Origin: Nitratireductor soli
Lineage (GTDB): Bacteria; Pseudomonadota; Alphaproteobacteria; Rhizobiales; Rhizobiaceae
Direction: 5' to 3'
Assembly (NCBI RefSeq): GCF_001050155.1
Contig: NZ_LFVY01000003.1
Location: forward strand, 62,001-126,000
DNA length: 64,000 nt
Under the pieces are notes generated by a model. It was not told where the DNA came from, searched no databases, and saw only the letters and a program-made list of their open reading frames with translations. Made by a program: the position numbers and the translations under genes. This document shows, piece after piece, positions 24,993 through 57,444 of this stretch; position 1 is the first letter of the stretch, and the number at the start of each line of letters is the position of its first letter.

Positions 24993-27110
<2,118 letters not shown>

Positions 27111-30191: not shown

Positions 30192-30722
30192 GTGGCTCTG
30201 TATGATCTTTACAGTTGCCAAGCGGCATCACGCGCCAGATGCGCCGAGCTCCGGATTGTCCGGATGCGTGGTTCGCATCCCGAGCAGTCAGCGCGCGAGG
30301 ATCGACGATCTCAGCCGTTTCCGGCGAACCGCAAAGGCTCCCAGTCGCCTGGCAAACGCAATCTGCAACTCACCGGTCTCGCCATGGGGTATGGTACGAT
30401 CTTTCTCGCGCTGGCCGAGACAATAGCCGAAACACCAATGGTGTTTGATTTCAGTTTCGCCTACGTTGCTTCACTGCTCTGCCTGGCGGCGCTCGGAACC
30501 GTCATAGGCTATGGCGCATACTTCGTCATCGTGGGACGCATAGGCCCGGAGAGGGCCGCCTATTCCATCGTAGCGACACCCGTTTGCGCCCTGGCCGTCT
30601 CCACGGCGCTAGAGGGATTGATGTGGGAACTGAACACTGTTCTTGGAATGCTTCTCGTCGTCACAGGCAACGTGCTCGTCCTTTCCAGGCGAGGGGCTCC
30701 GCATGCCAACCTCAAGGTGTGA
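30192..30722 (+). pseudogene. Remnant of an EamA/DMT-family transporter (second EamA domain only)
   Basis: From about 30355 the frame reads LQLTGLAMGYGTIFLALAET, AYVASLLCLAALGTVIGYGA, VGRIGPERAAYSIVATPVCA and VLGMLLVVTGNVLVLSRR. This is the second half of a DMT permease, with roughly four membrane helices. The five or six helices of the first EamA domain are missing. The 5' part of the frame (30192-30354) is Arg/Ser-rich and not transporter-like. A short expressed protein is possible, but I judge this a truncated gene. Confidence 0.65.
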
Positions 30723-30858
30723 AGAGCCACGCTGGTTCGGAACGGTTTCCCATCCGGAAGTTCCCACTGAACTGAAAATCAAATTCGAGACGGCACGCGA
30801 ATAAAACCGTAACTCGGCAGAACCAAGTATACATCGGGCTTCAGTGCAAAGACGGCAG

Positions 30859-31533
30859 ATGATCGAAATAAGAAACGTTTCCCTGAACTATGACAGCCTG
30901 TCGGTGCTTCGCGATGTCAGCTTGACGCTGTCGGAGAAGCGGATTGCCATCGTCGGTTCGAACGGGTCCGGCAAGAGCAGTTTCGCCCGCCTTCTCAATG
31001 GACTCCAACTGCCGACGGAGGGAACGGTTGTGGTCGATGGGTTCGACACGAAGAAGGATGGCAAGCAAATCCGGAAAAGGGTCGGCTTTGTCTTCCAGAA
31101 CCCCGACAATCAGATCGTATTCCCCGTTGTTGACGAGGATTTGGCCTTCGGGCTGAAGAATCTCAAGCTTCCGCCGGAGGTGATCGAGCAGAAGGTAACC
31201 GAGGCCTTGAGCCGGTATGACCTGCTCGCCTTCAGGAAGCATGCGTCCCACCATTTGAGCGGCGGGCAAAAGCAGCTCATCGCGATCTCCGGGGTTCTTG
31301 CCATGGAGCCCCGCTACGTCGTCCTCGATGAACCCACCACTCTGCTCGACCTGCGCAACAAGAGACGCATCGCCGAAGTCATCGATTCCCTGGAGCAGAC
31401 CGCCATCGTCGTCTCGCATGATCTCGATTTCCTGAGAAACTTCGATCGCGTGATCGTTTTCGAGGATTGCCGCGTGGTCATCGACGACACGCCATCGACG
31501 GCATTGGCGCGCTATGTCGAGAGGCTCTCATGA
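30859..31533 (+). CDS. bioM: Biotin ECF transporter ATPase BioM
   Basis: 224 residues from [20 protein letters not shown]. This is an ECF-type A subunit (CbiO-like). Walker A is GSNGSGKSS, the ECF-ATPase Q-helix region is [20 protein letters not shown], the signature is LSGGQKQL, and Walker B is [13 protein letters not shown]. It overlaps bioN by 4 bp. Together BioM and BioN energise the BioY substrate binder for high-affinity biotin uptake. An ATG 5 codons upstream is possible. No BioR-type TTATMKATAA box was seen upstream. Confidence 0.94.
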
Positions 31534-32129
31534 GTCTTGGAAACTACGTTCACAGGGAATCGCCGATCCACAGGATGCCGGCGGGCTCCAAGGTCCTGAT
31601 TCTGGTGATCGGCGGTACGGCCCTCTTTCTGGTTCCTGATCTCTTGATCATGATCACCATCCTGGCCGCCACCATCGTGCTGTATCGCGTCGCCAGGATC
31701 CCGATGGGGATTATGGTTGCGCAAGTTCGCCCGATCGTCTGGATTTTCGTGCTGATCTTCGTCTTTCAGCTCTTTACGCGCGATGTGGCTTTCGCCGGCA
31801 TGGTCGTTTCGCGGTTCGTCGCACTGCTGCTCCTGGCATCGCTTGTGACCCTCACCACACCCGCATCGGAGATGATCGACGCCATCGAAAGGCGGATAGG
31901 CTGGATGAGAGTGATCGGCGTCAATCCGGCGAAAATCAGCCTTGGCCTGTCACTCGCCCTGCGCTTCATTCCCGTCGTCGCGAAGATAACGTCCGAGGTC
32001 CGGGAGGCGCAGCGCGCACGGGGACTGGAATGGAGCGTGATAGCCGTCGCACTGCCCGTGATCATCAGAACGCTGAAAATGGCGGATGACGTAGCAAATG
32101 CCATCGATGCGCGCGGTTACGATCCATAG
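31530..32129 (+). CDS. bioN: Biotin ECF transporter transmembrane (T) subunit BioN
   Basis: 199 residues with about four to five membrane segments, beginning [20 protein letters not shown] and [20 protein letters not shown]. The coupling-helix Ala-Arg-Gly signature of T subunits appears twice: [10 protein letters not shown] and [11 protein letters not shown]. These contact the BioM ATPase. The gene overlaps bioM by 4 bp and is followed by bioY after 27 bp. It is somewhat shorter than stand-alone EcfT, as usual for BioN. Confidence 0.94.
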
Positions 32130-32156
32130 ATTACCCAAAGTTGAAAGAGAAAGAAC

Positions 32157-32717
32157 ATGTCGACCAAGGATATCGTCTATATTGCGTTGTTTGCAGCCGT
32201 CACGGCTGCGGTAGGGTTGTTCCCGCCATTCCCATTGCCTGTTACGGGCGTGCCCATCAGCGTGCAGAGCATAGGTCCTTTGCTTGCCGGAACAATTCTT
32301 GGGGCAAGGCGAGGGTTCCTCTCGCAGCTTCTCTTCGTCGTTTTGGTGGCGGTTGGCCTGCCTCTGCTGGCCGGGGGCCGTGGCGGCTTTGGCGTGTTCC
32401 TGGGCCCGTCGGCCGGCTACCTGCTCGCTTGGCCGCTGATCGCGCTCTTTGTCGGCTATATGGTTGAGCGCTACTGGAGAAATCTGACGCTTCTGAAGAC
32501 CATCGCCTTCTCCCTGATCGGCGCATTGGGCATCAGCAATCTGATGGGCATTCCGTGGATGGCGGCTCTGCTCGGCCTCAACCTCGTTGAAGCTGCGATA
32601 AGTTCTCTCGCTTTCGTGCCCGGCGATATTGCCAAGGCCATCCTTGCCTCCTTTATCGCCATGGCCGTCCGCTGCTCCTATCCGATCATCGAGCGGGAAA
32701 AAGCGCCGGCTACGTGA
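32157..32717 (+). CDS. bioY: Biotin ECF transporter substrate-binding (S) subunit BioY
   Basis: 186 residues and six membrane helices. BioY signatures are FPLPVTGVPISVQSIGPLLA near the start, LLAGGRGGFGVFLGPSAGYL in the middle, and FVPGDIAKAILASFIA at the end. BioY alone can bind and transport biotin. With BioMN it gains ATP-driven affinity. It is the last gene of the bioMNY operon. A two-part hairpin and a possible small ORF with a strong ribosome site follow. Confidence 0.96.
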   Translation: MSTKDIVYIALFAAVTAAVGLFPPFPLPVTGVPISVQSIGPLLAGTILGARRGFLSQLLFVVLVAVGLPLLAGGRGGFGVFLGPSAGYLLAWPLIALFVGYMVERYWRNLTLLKTIAFSLIGALGISNLMGIPWMAALLGLNLVEAAISSLAFVPGDIAKAILASFIAMAVRCSYPIIEREKAPAT

Positions 32718-32727
32718 TCATCGGGGC

Positions 32728-32771
32728 TTGCAGGTTTCAGGAACCGGCCGTCGAATTGCCGGTTTCTGCAA
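32728..32771 (+). terminator. Two-part stem-loop after bioY
   Basis: Outer arms TTGCAG (32728-32733) and CTGCAA (32766-32771) enclose inner arms AACCGGC and GCCGGTT (32742-32748, 32758-32764). It starts 11 bp after the bioY stop. It could be a terminator, though no U-run follows and a ribosome site begins immediately after. Confidence 0.4.
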
Positions 32772-32784
32772 ACAGGAGGTGATG

Positions 32785-32871
32785 ATGGAGAGCGATCGGT
32801 TTGCAGAGCCTATCCACACTTGTTGTGGAAACGAACCCGCACACCCAATTCAGAGCTCCTCGACCCATTGA
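32785..32871 (+). CDS. Possible 28-residue small protein after bioY
   Basis: An optimal ribosome site AGGAGG (32774-32779) stands 5 nt before ATG at 32785. The 28-codon frame includes RFAEPIHTCCGNEPAHP, with a Cys-Cys pair and several His. It overlaps the convergent thiolase gene by 22 bp. I do not recognise it. The near-perfect ribosome site is the only reason to list it. It may be chance, a leader peptide or a small protein co-transcribed with bioMNY. Confidence 0.3.
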   Translation: MESDRFAEPIHTCCGNEPAHPIQSSSTH

Positions 32872-34046
32872 AAGAGCGCCGTCAGTCCCAGCCCCCCACC
32901 AATTCCCAGCATCGCCATGCCCAGCGCGCCGTCGGTCTGGCGACGCGCGAACTGGGAGAAAAGCCGTGTCACCAGAATGGCGCCCGATGCGCCGAACGGA
33001 TGCCCAAGGGCAAGGGCACCGCCTTCGCGGTTGACCCGTTCGGCCGCGATATCAAGCCGGTCGATCGATCCGAGGACCTGCGCGGCGAACGCCTCATTGA
33101 ATTCAACGAGGTCGATGTCTTTCAGGGCAAGCGCGGGTTGGCGCCGCAGCAGGCGCTGCGTCGATCCGACCGGCCCCAGTCCCAGGAGATTTGGATCGAC
33201 ACCGGCCGACGCGGCGTCGATGAACATCAGTCCCTTTTTGACGCCGAGCGTGCGTGCAAGGCGCCGGCTCGTGATCAGGGTCACGGACGCGCCATCGTTC
33301 AACGGGCACGCATTGCCGGCCGTGACGGTCCCGTTGTCGACAAAGACGGGCGGAAGTGCCGACAGCGCCTCCATCGATGCGTTCCGGCGTGGGCACTCAT
33401 CGCGCTCTATAAGCATCCCTCCGCTCTCGACCGGCACGATCTCCTGATCGTAAGCCCCCGCGTCCATCGCCGTGACGGCCTTTTCATGGCTGGAAAGGGC
33501 GAAAAGGTCCTGCCGCTCGCGCGAAACACCGCATGCGCGCGCGACATTCTCAGCCGCGACACCCATTTCCGGGTCGCCTATGTCGTCGGGAGAAAACCGA
33601 GCCCGGCCATAGAAGCGAGGGAGGCCGGCTTTTCCACGCGGCTTCTCGACGCGCCATGGCGCTCTGCTGACCGATTCGACGCCGCCGGCCAGGTAGCACT
33701 CGCCGGCGCCGGCCTGCACCATTCTCGATGCGAGAATGACCGCCTCGAGCCCGGACCCGCACTGACGATCAACGGTGACGCCCGGAACCGTGACGGGGAG
33801 GCCGGACGCCAATGCGGACAAGCGGGCAATGTTGCCGCCTCCGGCCGTCGCATTGCCCAAAATCACGTCATCGACCGCGTCCGGCTCAAAGCCGACTTGC
33901 CCGATCATATGACGGATTACCGGGGCGACGAGATCCTGCGGTTCGAGCGCCTCGAACGCGCCGAACGCCCGCCCCACCGCCGTGCGGAAGGCCGCGACGA
34001 CGACCGGTTGCCGATCGGCGTCAACTGGATGTTTCGACAGCTGCAT
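32850..34046 (-). CDS. Thiolase-family protein lacking the second catalytic cysteine
   Basis: 398 residues from MQLSKHPVDADRQPVVVAAF, preferred because GGAAAGG precedes it; an earlier ATG at 34097 would overlap the ligase gene by 77 bp. The acyl-accepting Cys96 (TVDRQCGSGLEAV), the NEAFAAQ motif and His349 (ALGHPFGASGA) are conserved. The usual C-x-GGG base motif near the end reads LGIGGGLG, with Gly381 in place of cysteine. Thiolases normally need that cysteine for Claisen proton transfer, so the reaction may differ. It overlaps the acyl-CoA ligase gene by 26 bp. Context: biotin transport, ligase and thioesterase genes. Confidence 0.88.
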   Translation of the reverse strand: MQLSKHPVDADRQPVVVAAFRTAVGRAFGAFEALEPQDLVAPVIRHMIGQVGFEPDAVDDVILGNATAGGGNIARLSALASGLPVTVPGVTVDRQCGSGLEAVILASRMVQAGAGECYLAGGVESVSRAPWRVEKPRGKAGLPRFYGRARFSPDDIGDPEMGVAAENVARACGVSRERQDLFALSSHEKAVTAMDAGAYDQEIVPVESGGMLIERDECPRRNASMEALSALPPVFVDNGTVTAGNACPLNDGASVTLITSRRLARTLGVKKGLMFIDAASAGVDPNLLGLGPVGSTQRLLRRQPALALKDIDLVEFNEAFAAQVLGSIDRLDIAAERVNREGGALALGHPFGASGAILVTRLFSQFARRQTDGALGMAMLGIGGGLGLTALFQWVEEL

Positions 34047-35565
34047 ACTGGCCTTTCCGCAGAGCTTCCGCGACCTTGCCCCTGGCGATCTTCCCACTCG
34101 TCGTGACCGGCCAGGACTGCGTCCGGAAAAGATTTCTCGGCAGTTTATAGCGGGGCAGGAATGTGCCCGCGGCTGAAAGGACGCCGTCGCCGTCTTCGAA
34201 ACTGCCGCTTAAAACCGCGACGAGCCGCGTTCCCAGATGATCGTCCTCGACACCCAGCACGACGGCTTCATCGACATCGGCGATATTGCGCAGCGCGGTC
34301 TCTATCTCCGAAGGATAGACATTGAAACCACCGGTGACCACCATGCCGCCCTCACGGCCGATAACCCTCAAAGCTCCGTTCCCGTCGAGTTCGCCGATAT
34401 CGCCCACCGTTGCGCCGCCGGCGTCTGCCCGAAACGCCTTACCGTCGTCGCCCCACAAATACCCGTCGCAGATCAGGTCACTGTGCACATGGATCGTTCC
34501 GACCTCGCCTGGGCCGAGCACTTGTCCACCCGAATTGCGGATGCTGAGCCCGACGCCCGGAAACGGCTTTCCCACCGTCTGGAGGGGTGTCTCGGCATCG
34601 AAGGGGACGACGGTCGACACGGAGATGAAACCGAGTTCCGATGCGCCGTAATACTCCATGATGCGCGCGTTCGGGAACATCGCGCGCATTTGGCCAACCT
34701 GTTTGCTGCCCAGCTTGGACCCGGCCGTCAGGACATTGCGGATCATTGGAAACCCGCCCGGCTTCGCGATGGCGGTTTTGGCAAGGCCGCTGATCATCGT
34801 CGGGACCGCGACGAACCTTTGAATGCCCTCACGGCTCAGCAGATCGGCGACGCCTTCGGCCTGCCACTGCCTGATCGAGTGGAACGTGCCGCCGCTATGC
34901 AGGGCTTCGGCCAATGCGTAGAGCGCCAAGCCGTGGGCGAGGGCACCGGGACAGCACGTCGTTGGACCATTCTCCAATCCGAAGAGGGACCGGCCCCTTG
35001 AAAAGCTTGCCCGCCACGAGGCGCGCGACCGACTGTAGGCCTTCGGCAGCGCCGTGGTTCCCGAGGTGAAACTCACCAGGAACGTATCGTCGCCATCAGC
35101 GTCAACATCGGCATCGCCGGCCGCTGCCGGTTGATCTCCCTGCGCAAGACGATCGAACGATGACGCCAGCTCGATCGCCAGCCCCATCCTCGCGGCGATT
35201 TTCGCCGCATTCGAATTCATCGTCCCGGTTACGATCAGGTCAGGCCGGAGCCTGGTCAGTATTTCCTCGAGCTGGGTCGCCGGCATCGTGGGATCAAGCA
35301 CCGCGCAGGCATTCTTCCCCGTGGTGGCGCCGACGAACAGCTCGGCAAAGAGAGGGTGGTTTCCAAGGTCGAGCGCCGTTATCTTCCTGACGCCACCGGG
35401 AACCGACTGCCCGTCCCGCGTCCCCGGCAATGTCGCGATGTATGAGGCGAAAGACCTCGAGCGGCTCGCAAGGTCGGCATAGGTGCGGATCTGACCATCG
35501 AGCACGAATGCCGGCTTGTCCGGCGTGACGGCGGCATGATGGTCGATCTCCAGGTGAAACGGCAT
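34021..35565 (-). CDS. AMP-forming acyl-CoA ligase (ANL superfamily)
   Basis: 514 residues. The P-loop motif is FTSGTTALPKAYSRS, the A5 motif is EYYGASELGF, the A7 region is GDIGELDGNGALRVIGR and the C-terminal catalytic lysine lies in TTSGKIARGKVAEALRKG. These show an intact adenylate-forming enzyme that activates a carboxylic acid to a CoA thioester. It is most like fatty or aryl acid CoA ligases, but the acid cannot be read from sequence. The placement with thiolase, thioesterase and bioMNY resembles Bacillus subtilis yhfUTS (BioY paralogue, CoA ligase, thiolase), which suggests a biotin-related acid. That is inference. Confidence 0.9.
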   Translation of the reverse strand: MPFHLEIDHHAAVTPDKPAFVLDGQIRTYADLASRSRSFASYIATLPGTRDGQSVPGGVRKITALDLGNHPLFAELFVGATTGKNACAVLDPTMPATQLEEILTRLRPDLIVTGTMNSNAAKIAARMGLAIELASSFDRLAQGDQPAAAGDADVDADGDDTFLVSFTSGTTALPKAYSRSRASWRASFSRGRSLFGLENGPTTCCPGALAHGLALYALAEALHSGGTFHSIRQWQAEGVADLLSREGIQRFVAVPTMISGLAKTAIAKPGGFPMIRNVLTAGSKLGSKQVGQMRAMFPNARIMEYYGASELGFISVSTVVPFDAETPLQTVGKPFPGVGLSIRNSGGQVLGPGEVGTIHVHSDLICDGYLWGDDGKAFRADAGGATVGDIGELDGNGALRVIGREGGMVVTGGFNVYPSEIETALRNIADVDEAVVLGVEDDHLGTRLVAVLSGSFEDGDGVLSAAGTFLPRYKLPRNLFRTQSWPVTTSGKIARGKVAEALRKGQYAAVETSS

Positions 35566-35593
35566 GGCGAAAGCCTTGGCAAGGGTGAGGGCG

Positions 35594-36013
35594 TCAGGGC
35601 GCGCTGCGCAGAGCCGCGGCGGTCAATTCGGGAACAGGTCTGGGCCGGCCCGCCTTGAGGTCGACGCAGACCCAGACGATCATGCCTGTCGCACAATTTT
35701 TTCCGGTTTCCGCGCGCGCGAGGTTTATCTCGAAGGCCAGGCTGGATGTGCCCAGATGGGCAATGCGAACGCGCGCGTCGACCACATCATCGACACCGAC
35801 GGGGCTATGGAAGGTGATCTCGGCCTTCTTGACGTGATAGCCGATATCAGGGTCTCCGTGTCGAAAATGCTGATAAAGCCCCGACGCGTGAAGATACTCG
35901 ACGATGGCGTCCTGGCAGTAATCGAGATAAACGGAATTGTGGACGTGGCCGAAGATGTCGATATGGCGCATTGAAACGCGGAAGCGGGCATGGTGCTTTT
36001 GCTCCTCAGCCAT
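35594..36013 (-). CDS. YbgC/4-hydroxybenzoyl-CoA-type hotdog thioesterase
   Basis: 139 residues. The hotdog active-site motif RHIDIFGHVHNSVYLDYCQD holds the catalytic Asp and is typical of the 4HBT group, with AEITFHSPVGVDDVVDARVR forming the sheet edge. It should hydrolyse an acyl-CoA thioester in the cytoplasm. It is the first gene of a minus-strand operon with the CoA ligase 28 bp downstream and the thiolase after that. It is divergent from the reductase gene across 53 bp. Having a thioesterase beside a CoA ligase suggests release of a processed acid. Specific substrate unknown. Confidence 0.9.
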   Translation of the reverse strand: MAEEQKHHARFRVSMRHIDIFGHVHNSVYLDYCQDAIVEYLHASGLYQHFRHGDPDIGYHVKKAEITFHSPVGVDDVVDARVRIAHLGTSSLAFEINLARAETGKNCATGMIVWVCVDLKAGRPRPVPELTAAALRSAP

Positions 36014-36066
36014 GAGAACCCCGACAATCTGCCTTCATCTTTCAAACCTTAATCAACGGGGATTCA

Positions 36067-37047
36067 ATGCACCAGAGGGCAATCGTCCACGAGTTTGGTG
36101 ACGCGCGCGAGGTCGTGGAACTCGAGCGCTACGACCCGGGTCCGTTGGCGGCGGACAAGGTGCGTGTTCGAATGACGGTCCGGGCGATAAACCCGTCCGA
36201 TCTCATCACGATTTCTGGGGCATATCGGTCAAGAACACAATTGCCTTTCCTTCCCGGGTTCGAGGGCGTCGGCGTGGTCGAGGCATGCGGCGCTGATGTC
36301 AGTGGAAGCAGAAGGGGCGCGCGGGTCGTTCCCATCGGTTCTGCCGGTGCCTGGCAGGGGGTCAGGGACTGTGATCCCTCGTGGTGCCTGCAGGTTGCCG
36401 ATGGTGTCGATGATGAGCAGGCCGCGATGAGCTACGTCAATCCGATGACGGCATGGGCCATGCTGCATGCGGTGGCGAAAATTCGTCCCGGCATGCGCAT
36501 CGCCGTCACGGCCGCCGGTTCCGCGATAGGCCAGATGATCGTCAAGCTGGCGAATTCGGTCGGGCTGCGCCCGATAGCGTTCCTTCGAAGTGAGCGGGCG
36601 GCGCGGAACATCGCGCATTTGTCCGCTGATGTGGTCCGATACGCCGGCGGTGACGCGCTTTCAGGCTTGTGCGGCAGCGCATCCGCTGTCGAAAAGGTCG
36701 ACAGGATATTCGATTGTATCGGCGGACGGGAAAGCCTGGCCCTTGCTTGTCTTCTGCGCGAGGGTGGCATGTTCGTCCATTACGGCCTCTTGTCGGGACA
36801 ACCCATCCCGCCGGAATTCTGGTCAGCCAGGCGCGACATCGACTTCAAGATGTTCCATCTGCGAAACTGGATCCGCGAGGTTCCGATCGAGCAGGTCCAC
36901 AGCACTTACGCGCAGGTGAGCGCATCGATCGTCACCGGCGATATCCGGTCGGGAATACGCGAACGCTACGCTCTGGGCGATGTGAAATCGGCATTGCGCG
37001 ACGCGATCAACCCTTCGGCCGAGGGCAAGGTGCTTATCGTGAACTGA
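36067..37047 (+). CDS. MDR-family quinone/enoyl-thioester reductase-like protein
   Basis: 326 residues. A GroES-like front half (DKVRVRMTVRAINPSDLITI, FLPGFEGVGVVEACGADV) and a Rossmann half with cofactor motif TAAGSAIGQMIVKLANSVG identify the medium-chain dehydrogenase/reductase superfamily. The zinc-ligand cysteines of alcohol dehydrogenases are absent. VNPMTAWAML resembles the enoyl-thioester reductase (ETR/MECR) subgroup, so NADPH reduction of an unsaturated acyl thioester is plausible. The gene is divergent from the thioesterase and may share its control region. ATG at 36067 follows GGGGATT. Confidence 0.85.
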   Translation: MHQRAIVHEFGDAREVVELERYDPGPLAADKVRVRMTVRAINPSDLITISGAYRSRTQLPFLPGFEGVGVVEACGADVSGSRRGARVVPIGSAGAWQGVRDCDPSWCLQVADGVDDEQAAMSYVNPMTAWAMLHAVAKIRPGMRIAVTAAGSAIGQMIVKLANSVGLRPIAFLRSERAARNIAHLSADVVRYAGGDALSGLCGSASAVEKVDRIFDCIGGRESLALACLLREGGMFVHYGLLSGQPIPPEFWSARRDIDFKMFHLRNWIREVPIEQVHSTYAQVSASIVTGDIRSGIRERYALGDVKSALRDAINPSAEGKVLIVN

Positions 37048-37110
37048 AGGCCGGCAAGCCAAAGCCAAGTCCCGACCCTGTCGCATCAGCGCGAGAATCG
37101 GAACCGACCT

Positions 37111-37212
37111 AGAGCGTTTTGCAGTCAGGTGGAATCACCTGACGTCTGCATAAACGCGGAAAAACAACGAGATAGACCGGGACAGCGTTTCTGCGAAACG
37201 ATGAACCGGTCT
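37111..37212 (+). repeat. ~102 bp RIME-like palindromic intergenic repeat, copy 3 (opposite orientation)
   Basis: AGAGCGTTTTGCAGTCAGG ... AGATAGACCGGGACAGCG ... GATGAACCGGTCT is the reverse complement form of copies 1 and 2. Palindromes CAGGTGGAATCACCTG and GTTTCTGCGAAAC are kept. It fills most of the 3' gap between the MDR and biotin ligase genes and overlaps the last 2 bp of the latter. Confidence 0.85.
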
Positions 37213-37990
37213 AAGCGCCGACATCACCCGTCGAGAACGATCGAACGGTGCCGTCAGACAGTTTCAGTTGCAGAAGCCCGGTTTCGTTGACGCCGAGGCA
37301 AAGACCGGTAACACGGTCGGTTCGAGCCTCATTGAGCGCGATCGTCACCTCTTCGCCGCGCCGCCAGATATTGCTGGTGTACATTGCCGCCAAGGGCGCA
37401 AACCCGTCCAGCGTCCACTTCTGAAACTGCGCCAGCCAGCGATCGGCGATCATCTCGATCAGCGCCAATCGTTCGATATTGCAGAACCGGCCAAGAGAGG
37501 TGGTCGGATAGATGGCATCGGGCAATTCGGCCACCAGGTTCACGCCTATTCCCACGTAGATCCGTGTCGCGCTGGTCTCGATCAGGGTTCCCGAAATCTT
37601 GGCGTCGTCGACGACGATATCGTTCGGCCACTTGATGCACACGGCCGCCCGATCGCCGACCAGGGTCTGCAGAACATCGTGAACAGCCAGGCCGGTCATT
37701 AGAGGCAAGGTCGGCGAGCCGAGAAATGAAAAGGGAAGGGGCACTGCTATCGTCATGGCGACATTGTCTGCAGGCGCGTACCACGCCCGCCCGTAGCGGC
37801 CGCGCCCGGAGGTCTGCTTGCGCGCCGAAACCACAAACACACCGCTTTTGCCGCCGTCGGCCAACCGCTTCGCTTCTGAATTGGTGCTGTCGAGTTCCTC
37901 GTAGTCCTCGATCACCTTTTCAGCATCAACTCCGTCCATGACATTGCAAACCGTTCTGATCAGATCGACCGCTGCGGAATCAACCTTCAT
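37211..37990 (-). CDS. birA: Stand-alone biotin protein ligase (BirA-type, no DNA-binding domain)
   Basis: 259 residues. It attaches biotin to carboxylase carrier domains through biotinyl-AMP. The signature SGRGRYGRAWYAPADN (GRGRxGR loop), the KWPNDIVV motif and GIGVNLVAELPDA are all present, with a C-terminal SH3-like domain (SDGTVRSFSTGDVGA). There is no N-terminal helix-turn-helix, so it is not a repressor. The first ATG (37990) lies one base after the flagellin terminator T-run. A second ATG (37939, MDGVDAEKV) keeps the whole catalytic domain. Its place next to bioMNY suggests a cluster-specific copy. Confidence 0.9.
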   Translation of the reverse strand: MKVDSAAVDLIRTVCNVMDGVDAEKVIEDYEELDSTNSEAKRLADGGKSGVFVVSARKQTSGRGRYGRAWYAPADNVAMTIAVPLPFSFLGSPTLPLMTGLAVHDVLQTLVGDRAAVCIKWPNDIVVDDAKISGTLIETSATRIYVGIGVNLVAELPDAIYPTTSLGRFCNIERLALIEMIADRWLAQFQKWTLDGFAPLAAMYTSNIWRRGEEVTIALNEARTDRVTGLCLGVNETGLLQLKLSDGTVRSFSTGDVGA

Positions 37991-38020: not shown

Positions 38021-38043
38021 TCACCAATATGGACCAGGTCGGC

Positions 38044-56902: not shown

Positions 56903-56947
56903 CACAAATCCTTTCCCCTCCACCCGAGGGTTTGGTGTCCGTTTCCG

Positions 56948-57118
56948 TCACCGGCAGGTTTCCTGGCTTGCGGGTCGATGCTTTTTCCTGCCTTCCCAAA
57001 GCCGAAGCTTCAGTGGCGTCGTCGGAAAAAACTCTCCGCCTACAGTTGCGGGGGCAGCCGCGGCATTGGCGCTTGCGCGCCGCACCGCATTCCCTTCGGG
57101 TTCGCTTTCGCGGCACCG
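56948..57118 (-). promoter_or_regulatory. Cobalamin riboswitch controlling cbtB-cbtA-cobP-cobO
   Basis: On the minus strand the B12-box parts appear in order: GAAGGGAATGCGGTGCGG, CCGCGGCTGCCCCCGCAACT, GACGACGCCACTG, TTTGGGAAGGCAGG, and AAGCCAGGAAACCTGCC. The last is the conserved B12 box. It ends about 45 bp before cbtB. Adenosylcobalamin should switch the operon off. Its core is almost identical to that of the divergent riboswitch on the other strand. Confidence 0.94.
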
Positions 57119-57218
57119 ATGACAGGTCGGAGCATAACGAAAACGCCGCCCGCCGCAAACGGTTTGTTGCGCGCATTGACAGGAGGGTTCGGCGAGCCGT
57201 AAATGCGCCAATGACGGT

Positions 57219-57392
57219 CCTCCTCCCGCAACGGAGGAGGCTAAGAGGGAATGCGGTGCGGGTGTCTTCACCCAATGCCGCAACTGTCCCCGCAACTGTA
57301 AGCGGAGAGTTTTTTCCGACGACGCCACTGAAGCTTCGGCTTTGGGAAGGCAGGAAAAAACGCTGATCCGCGAGTCAGGAAACCTGCCGTCG
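57219..57392 (+). promoter_or_regulatory. Cobalamin riboswitch controlling DUF1636-cobW-cobN-cobG-cobH
   Basis: A perfect 8 bp hairpin (CCTCCTCC-CGCAAC-GGAGGAGG, 57219-57240) leads into AAGAGGGAATGCGGTGCGG, then GTCCCCGCAACTGTAAGCGG, GACGACGCCACTG, TTTGGGAAGGCAGG and the B12 box GAGTCAGGAAACCTGCCG. It ends 53 bp before the first coding sequence. Between the two riboswitches (57119-57218) lies only space for two divergent promoters. Confidence 0.94.
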
Positions 57393-57444
57393 AAAACAGA
57401 AATCCTGACCGCCTGGCGGGTGTCCCGGGCAAGGAGCGTGCACA

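Follow-up and report, generated by a model that had tools for sequence, protein, structure and literature searches.

In the BirA regulon of Bacillus and Staphylococcus, the biotin transporter gene bioY is grouped with yhfT and yhfS, which encode, respectively, a CoA ligase and a homologue of thiolases. Staphylococcus aureus BirA with biotin represses the bioY and yhfT–yhfS genes in an Escherichia coli reporter strain (PMC6391492, available text), and the available portions of PMC7235819 and PMC11089781 likewise place yhfT–yhfS under BirA. In the text available from PMC6391492 and PMC7235819, the functions of yhfS and yhfT are given only as putative, and PMC12642757 does not mention yhfT or yhfS. 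Sinorhizobium meliloti has a comparable grouping of BioY with an AMP-binding protein (SMc00965) and a thiolase (SMc00966), the genes of which respond together to NolR, falling with nolR (PMC12445080, available text). Here we analyse a related locus of Nitratireductor soli, at positions 30859–37990 of a 64,000-nucleotide stretch of contig NZ_LFVY01000003.1 (hereafter the window), in which the genes of a biotin importer, BioMNY, lie beside those of an acyl-CoA ligase, a thiolase-fold protein, a thioesterase, a reductase and a biotin protein ligase. Judged from gene order and similarity, bioMNY genes repeatedly occur with those of such a ligase and thiolase-fold protein, and the association spans Alpha- and Gammaproteobacteria and Actinomycetota. 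The link between ligase, thiolase and biotin importer is a variant of an already known association; what is new here, on the basis of aligned sequences, is the loss of the second catalytic cysteine throughout the thiolases paired with such ligases. A functional study of such a pathway was not found among searchable openly licensed papers.

A biotin importer beside an acyl-CoA module

The importer is complete, with ATPase, T component and BioY present together. bioM (30859–31533, plus strand; an alternative GTG start at 30844 on the same strand is also possible) encodes the predicted ATPase of an energy-coupling factor (ECF) transporter (PF00005, 2.6e-27; TIGR04520 is the best NCBIfam match, under its cut-off), bioN (31530–32129, plus strand) a CbiQ-type ECF T component (PF02361, 8.4e-22) and bioY (32157–32717, plus strand) the biotin S component (PF02632, 5.8e-33; PDB 4dve, 8.8e-22). 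Facing these genes is a single minus-strand run made up of the genes for the thiolase-fold protein (32850–34046; TIGR01930, 392 bits), which in the active-site alignment has Gly in place of the second catalytic Cys, an AMP-forming acyl-CoA ligase (34021–35565), overlapping the thiolase gene, and a 4HBT hotdog thioesterase (35594–36013; PF13279, 2.4e-20), separated from the ligase gene by 28 bp. Divergent from the thioesterase gene is that of a medium-chain dehydrogenase/reductase (MDR) protein (36067–37047, plus strand) resembling 2-enoyl-thioester reductases of the MECR type. The biotin protein ligase (37211–37990, minus strand) has 259 amino acids.

Pfam and NCBIfam scans agree with the gene names given in an earlier note on this DNA, and both its gene content and its minus-strand operon of enzymes stand. 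Its joining of bioMNY to that operon does not: bioMNY lie on the plus strand, convergent with the thiolase–ligase–thioesterase run, and are therefore outside the operon in the N. soli genome. The absence of hydratase and hydroxyacyl dehydrogenase genes from the 7.1 kb of the cluster was likewise correctly noted, yet such functions may be encoded by genes flanking the cluster in two enterobacteria (below).

The best model by far for the window ligase is NF005797, which we take to be the YhfT model (279 bits, below the equivalog cut-off of 518); the next ligase of the N. soli genome reaches 182 bits on it. The window thiolase matches NF005212, presumably the YhfS model, with 388 bits, under the cut-off of 498. 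NF005797 is the best model for each of the five module ligases scanned, and for five module thiolases NF005212 comes first or second, in every case below the equivalog cut-off. In a control set, 1 of 14 genomes had a match over the NF005797 cut-off. What the window shares with the Bacillus and Staphylococcus operons is BioY beside a CoA ligase and a protein related to thiolases; it has in addition the whole of BioMNY, an enoyl reductase, a thioesterase and a biotin ligase, and it scores below both equivalog cut-offs; the likeness is one to models, with no Bacillota sequence compared. In Sinorhizobium strain Ak57, ligase and thiolase are encoded on the same strand as bioMNY, unlike in the window, and the ligase frame is broken in the two Sinorhizobium records read (9569–11066 in L032 and 8552–10047 in L026, each split over two frames, with bioY and the thiolase gene open). 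From the available text of PMC12445080, we infer that SMc00965 and SMc00966 correspond to the genes read in strain Ak57.

Recurrence in other genomes

Using a ligase alignment as query in 297 genomes of the order, with up to five first-look candidates scored per genome so that counts are lower bounds, we found at least 17 genomes with a ligase match of at least 336 bits; the next best match scored 265. We read the ligase neighbourhood in all 17, the window included. A neighbourhood survey had been proposed in the earlier note, and it bears out conservation of the cluster: transporter genes adjoin the ligase gene in 15 of the 17, more than expected by chance, and 13 have bioY immediately before the ligase gene on the same strand, with the thiolase gene following. 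In G024, a 4.2 kb contig carries genes for ligase, thiolase, thioesterase, BioM and BioN, and G281 and G023 have no transporter gene in the 18–20 kb read around the ligase gene.

The association, which the earlier note had described as crossing phyla, was also seen outside the order, with enzymes nearest the models taken to be those of YhfT and YhfS. Seven ligase matches at E ≤ 1e-85 were obtained from 398 Pseudomonadota genomes (three candidates scored in each). Five come from genomes that the order set already contains; the two new ones have bioY upstream. Among 296 Actinomycetota genomes, seven ligases scored at least 295 bits, four with adjoining transporter genes. Only the centre genome itself matched among 197 Enterobacterales, and the module is therefore rare in that order. 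Plasmid records gave 126 ligase matches at E ≤ 1e-30, 113 of them from Rhizobium; the four Rhizobium plasmid records read contain the MDR, thioesterase, ligase and thiolase genes, with bioMNY not adjoining. On plasmid p42f of Rhizobium etli CFN 42 (L027, 575–14695), some 8 kb separate the module from panC–panB, giving two cofactor-related loci in the region.

In 47 stretches scanned together, the thiolase gene adjoins the ligase gene in 38 and transporter genes are present in 33. These stretches are a biased sample, in which L056–L059 were taken for a known nearby bioY and others for a low ligase score; L022, L023 and the duplicate L069 are not among them, and the weak matches to ABC ATPases in L063 do not enter the transporter count. 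Only L002, L003 and L004 of the 18 loci from the initial search are module members; the other 15 gave no convincing match to a second module gene. Among the stretches scanned for it, a biotin ligase gene adjoins the module in the window, L002 and L003 and, as a weak case, L062, and in no other. A plasmid search with the biotin ligase gave six records, and the one read (Pantoea, L030) shows no module.

Gene order varies among relatives. Both Azospirillum lipoferum and Azospirillum thermophilum carry on plasmids a same-strand BioMNY–ligase–thiolase run, which in A. lipoferum reads bioM, bioN, bioY, ligase, thiolase and a major facilitator superfamily (MFS) gene. An MFS gene comes after the module on both of these plasmids (L025, 11595–12830; L034, 9171–10420, in two pieces in L034), and its product could be an exporter or importer of the module substrate. 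Sinorhizobium Ak57 has bioMNY, ligase and thiolase genes on one strand, with the thioesterase and MDR genes next to them. In Streptantibioticus cattleyicolor (tblastn), a divergent MDR gene is followed by the genes for thioesterase, BioM, BioN, BioY, ligase and thiolase. In Rouxiella badensis, the biotin ligase gene precedes bioMNY, a short-chain dehydrogenase/reductase (SDR) gene overlaps its start by one base, and a crotonase gene is convergent with the thiolase gene; Serratia sp. M24T3 has the same gene set. With the SDR and crotonase, these two enterobacteria would have a full set for C2 extension.

We regard a genuine biotin-linked module as highly probable.

Biotin economy of the host

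Within the 5.1 Mb N. soli assembly (99.48% complete), BioY has a single match, the window copy, and the biotin-ligase model matches at exactly one place, the window gene; bioB and bioD have no match. The biotin ligase, called private in the earlier note, is thus the only one matched in this genome. On these counts, N. soli is very probably a biotin auxotroph relying on the window importer and the window biotin ligase. That ligase fits Group I, with 113 bits on TIGR00121 (cut-off 83.1) and no helix-turn-helix (HTH) family in the Pfam scan, so that its description as lacking a DNA-binding domain holds. BirA-type control of the window module is unlikely because the biotin ligase lacks an HTH. In each of the 22 module genomes searched, the biotin-ligase model has a match above its cut-off. 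Serratia sp. M24T3 has two biotin-ligase-model matches, and Rouxiella only the cluster copy.

These data bear on the idea that the module feeds de novo biotin synthesis with a precursor of the pimelate or desthiobiotin type. A ligase, a condensing-type enzyme, a reductase and a thioesterase could build a C7 chain, and five module genomes do have bioB. Against this, 17 of the 22 have no bioB match and 18 have no bioD match, bioD being over the cut-off in only 3, and the N. soli genome has a match to neither. We consider precursor supply most improbable in general, and for the N. soli genome we rejected the pimelate or desthiobiotin route advanced in the earlier note, there being neither a bioB nor a bioD match.

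Over all 297 genomes of the order, BioB was found in 2 of 17 module genomes versus 99 of 280 others (one-sided p = 0.035). Among the 200 BioY-bearing genomes, the figures are 2 of 17 and 26 of 183 (p = 0.56). We do not claim, and have dropped, a special link between the module and bioB loss, because the signal vanishes once BioY presence is allowed for. Five lower-scoring genomes added post hoc gave p = 0.006 (all 297) and p = 0.37 (BioY-bearing); G108, G232, G205 and G079 were picked since bioY and the ligase gene lie no more than some 1.2 kb apart, and G256 has a ligase–thiolase pair with bioY not in the stretch read. An altered specificity of the module BioY could not be read from its sequence: the arginine of GGRGG and the GD..K residues, which we take to be BioY ligand residues, are the same in the off-module BioY of L033.

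Thiolase active site

We aligned 38 thiolases encoded next to such ligases (32 with transporter genes in the stretch) to E. coli AtoB. The nucleophilic Cys (AtoB C88) and the His of the GHP loop are kept in all 38, as in canonical thiolases of the same family. The second Cys, that of the CxG motif (AtoB C379), is present in canonical thiolases but absent in all 38, being replaced by Ala (21), Gly (15) or Ser (2). The Asn of the NEAF motif is lost in 19; the window thiolase and 18 others keep it. As a control, five of five other thiolases of the N. soli genome keep all four residues. The 38 proteins form one clade (support 1.0) against only six outgroup sequences. Among the stretches read, a thioesterase and an MDR protein like those of the window are confined to one subclade of the thiolase tree, comprising the window, Rhizobium, the two enterobacteria, Streptantibioticus, Sinorhizobium and Shinella, together with G024, which has the thioesterase alone on a short contig. 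An AlphaFold thiolase model built from four sequences had a mean predicted local distance difference test score of 37.5 and was not used.

The CxG Cys serves as base and acid in Claisen chemistry. Its loss removes the base for condensation and the acid for thiolysis, and an acyl-enzyme can still form. Cys-His-Asn without the base is the set used by decarboxylating condensing enzymes, and Cys-His alone fits acyl transfer. Plain thiolysis or β-oxidation by the module appears unlikely because the CxG Cys is absent in 38 of 38, and the thiolytic shortening of a biotin-related acid put forward in the earlier note is not borne out for a family of this kind.

The residue pattern also admits a role in which biotin itself is the acid activated by the ligase, to be retained after import or transferred through the thiolase-like Cys to an acceptor, with the thioesterase reversing the reaction. 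Such biotinyl-CoA formation would suit the minimal two-gene form of the module and the 19 of 38 proteins in which both Claisen residues are gone, but a biotin protein ligase is over the cut-off in every module genome searched and the enoyl reductase would be needless; we hold this role to be quite unlikely.

Direction of the chemistry and proposed function

The best solved match of the MDR protein is 3gms (2.7e-48), followed by human mitochondrial 2-enoyl-thioester reductase (MECR, 4e-31). The Tyr of its GAY motif aligns with that of the MECR GNY motif, which we take to be an active-site residue, and the aligned Tyr is kept in 11 of 11 module copies. MECR-type reductases act in synthesis. The MDR protein thus resembles the MECR/2-enoyl-thioester reductase group in sequence match and aligned Tyr and is a putative enoyl-thioester reductase, but 3gms is closer to it. 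Because the cluster pairs a MECR-like reductase with an acid-freeing thioesterase and contains no acyl-CoA dehydrogenase gene, its composition suggests a synthetic direction.

Degradation of biotin by β-oxidation is known from older literature, and side-chain β-oxidation to bisnorbiotin would fit the ligase and thiolase names. It would be an odd pathway for a probable auxotroph with one importer; moreover, the window cluster has no acyl-CoA dehydrogenase gene, the thiolase lacks the CxG Cys and the reductase type indicates the opposite direction. We therefore judge catabolism highly unlikely.

We tentatively favour a conserved module that serves biotin acquisition after import and works synthetically on a biotin-type acid; its most concrete form would be the lengthening of bisnorbiotin by two carbons. 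BioMNY would import a biotin-type carboxylic acid, which the ligase would convert to its CoA thioester, and the acyl group would be loaded onto the nucleophilic Cys of the thiolase-like protein. With Cys-His-Asn, this protein could join the acyl group to a two-carbon unit derived from malonyl-CoA, a reaction that needs no base. Reduction and dehydration would be carried out by enzymes from elsewhere in the N. soli genome, and the enoyl reductase and then the thioesterase would yield the free acid for the biotin ligase; the release of a product for that ligase by the putative thioesterase, as the earlier note had it, is possible. The most concrete pair of substrate and product would be bisnorbiotin and biotin, with auxotrophs salvaging the side-chain-shortened form. 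That the module works synthetically on an imported biotin-type acid is close to an even proposition, and that it specifically re-extends bisnorbiotin is doubtful. It is similarly doubtful, if conceivable, that the base-less thiolase-fold enzyme, acting by decarboxylating condensation or as an acyltransferase, rebuilds the valerate chain of bisnorbiotin or a similar acid.

A different role, in biotin-sparing lipid metabolism, would make the importer link one of shared need and not of substrate. When biotin, and with it acetyl-CoA carboxylase, is low, the ligase would activate outside fatty acids and the thiolase-like protein would move acyl groups from CoA to another thiol, such as that of acyl carrier protein (ACP). 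The ligase and thiolase models matched are mostly named for fatty-acid metabolism, and a Cys-His enzyme without the Claisen base is still able to transfer acyl groups. In S. aureus, yhfT–yhfS are under the biotin ligase/repressor and their transcripts outlast those of biotin synthesis after biotin is given (PMC7235819, available text). However, the tight same-strand linkage to the importer in many genomes exceeds what shared need usually gives, and among the recurring gene types of the module stretches, the flanks of which are only partly annotated, there is no fatty-acid importer or ACP gene. We regard this role as unlikely.

Several observations weigh against the post-import, synthetic reading. 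The association is one-way, with BioY in 200 of the 297 order genomes and a clear ligase orthologue in only 17; in Rhizobium (L021, L022, L023, L027, L037 and L038) the enzymes are encoded away from bioMNY, and in the window the two gene sets are convergent. The thioesterases of Sinorhizobium and Shinella match weakly, at 29–32% identity, the SDR and crotonase genes lie beside the cluster only in two enterobacteria that are close relatives, and 3gms is named only as a putative quinone reductase. Loss of the NEAF Asn argues against condensation in the 19 members concerned, and no thioesterase or MDR gene like those of the window was found beside such thiolases. Lack of bioB does not set module genomes apart among BioY-bearing ones. 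The substrate itself is a putative one. The convergent layout and the scarcity of the ligase among BioY-bearing genomes would also fit a chance neighbourhood without function, but the spread of the module over Alpha- and Gammaproteobacteria and Actinomycetota and the same-strand runs elsewhere already contradict this, and the probability of such a neighbourhood is negligible.

Recurrence, the absence of a bioB match in 17 of 22 module genomes and the residue loss in 38 of 38 thiolases together narrow the possible chemistry. If side-chain repair were true, it would also explain the presence of yhfT–yhfS in the Bacillus and Staphylococcus biotin regulon, and a route for repairing the vitamin would change the prediction of biotin auxotrophy from genomes.

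Regulation and neighbouring features

Riboswitch control of the module was rejected, as Rfam gave no match at gathering score within 30.8–38.1 kb. No BioR-type box occurs at fewer than two mismatches in the window; at two mismatches there are 14 in the whole window versus 8 expected. A terminator-like hairpin at 38022–37996 lies between the biotin protein ligase gene and a flagellin gene. Directly 5′ of bioM, a short open reading frame (30192–30722, plus strand) matches part of the EamA transporter family and is probably a fragment.

Elsewhere in the window, a thiamine pyrophosphate riboswitch scores above gathering (26975–27104, minus strand). Two cobalamin riboswitches stand back to back, 62 bp apart (56936–57135, minus strand; 57198–57405, plus strand), flanked by CbtA on one side and by CobW and CobN on the other.

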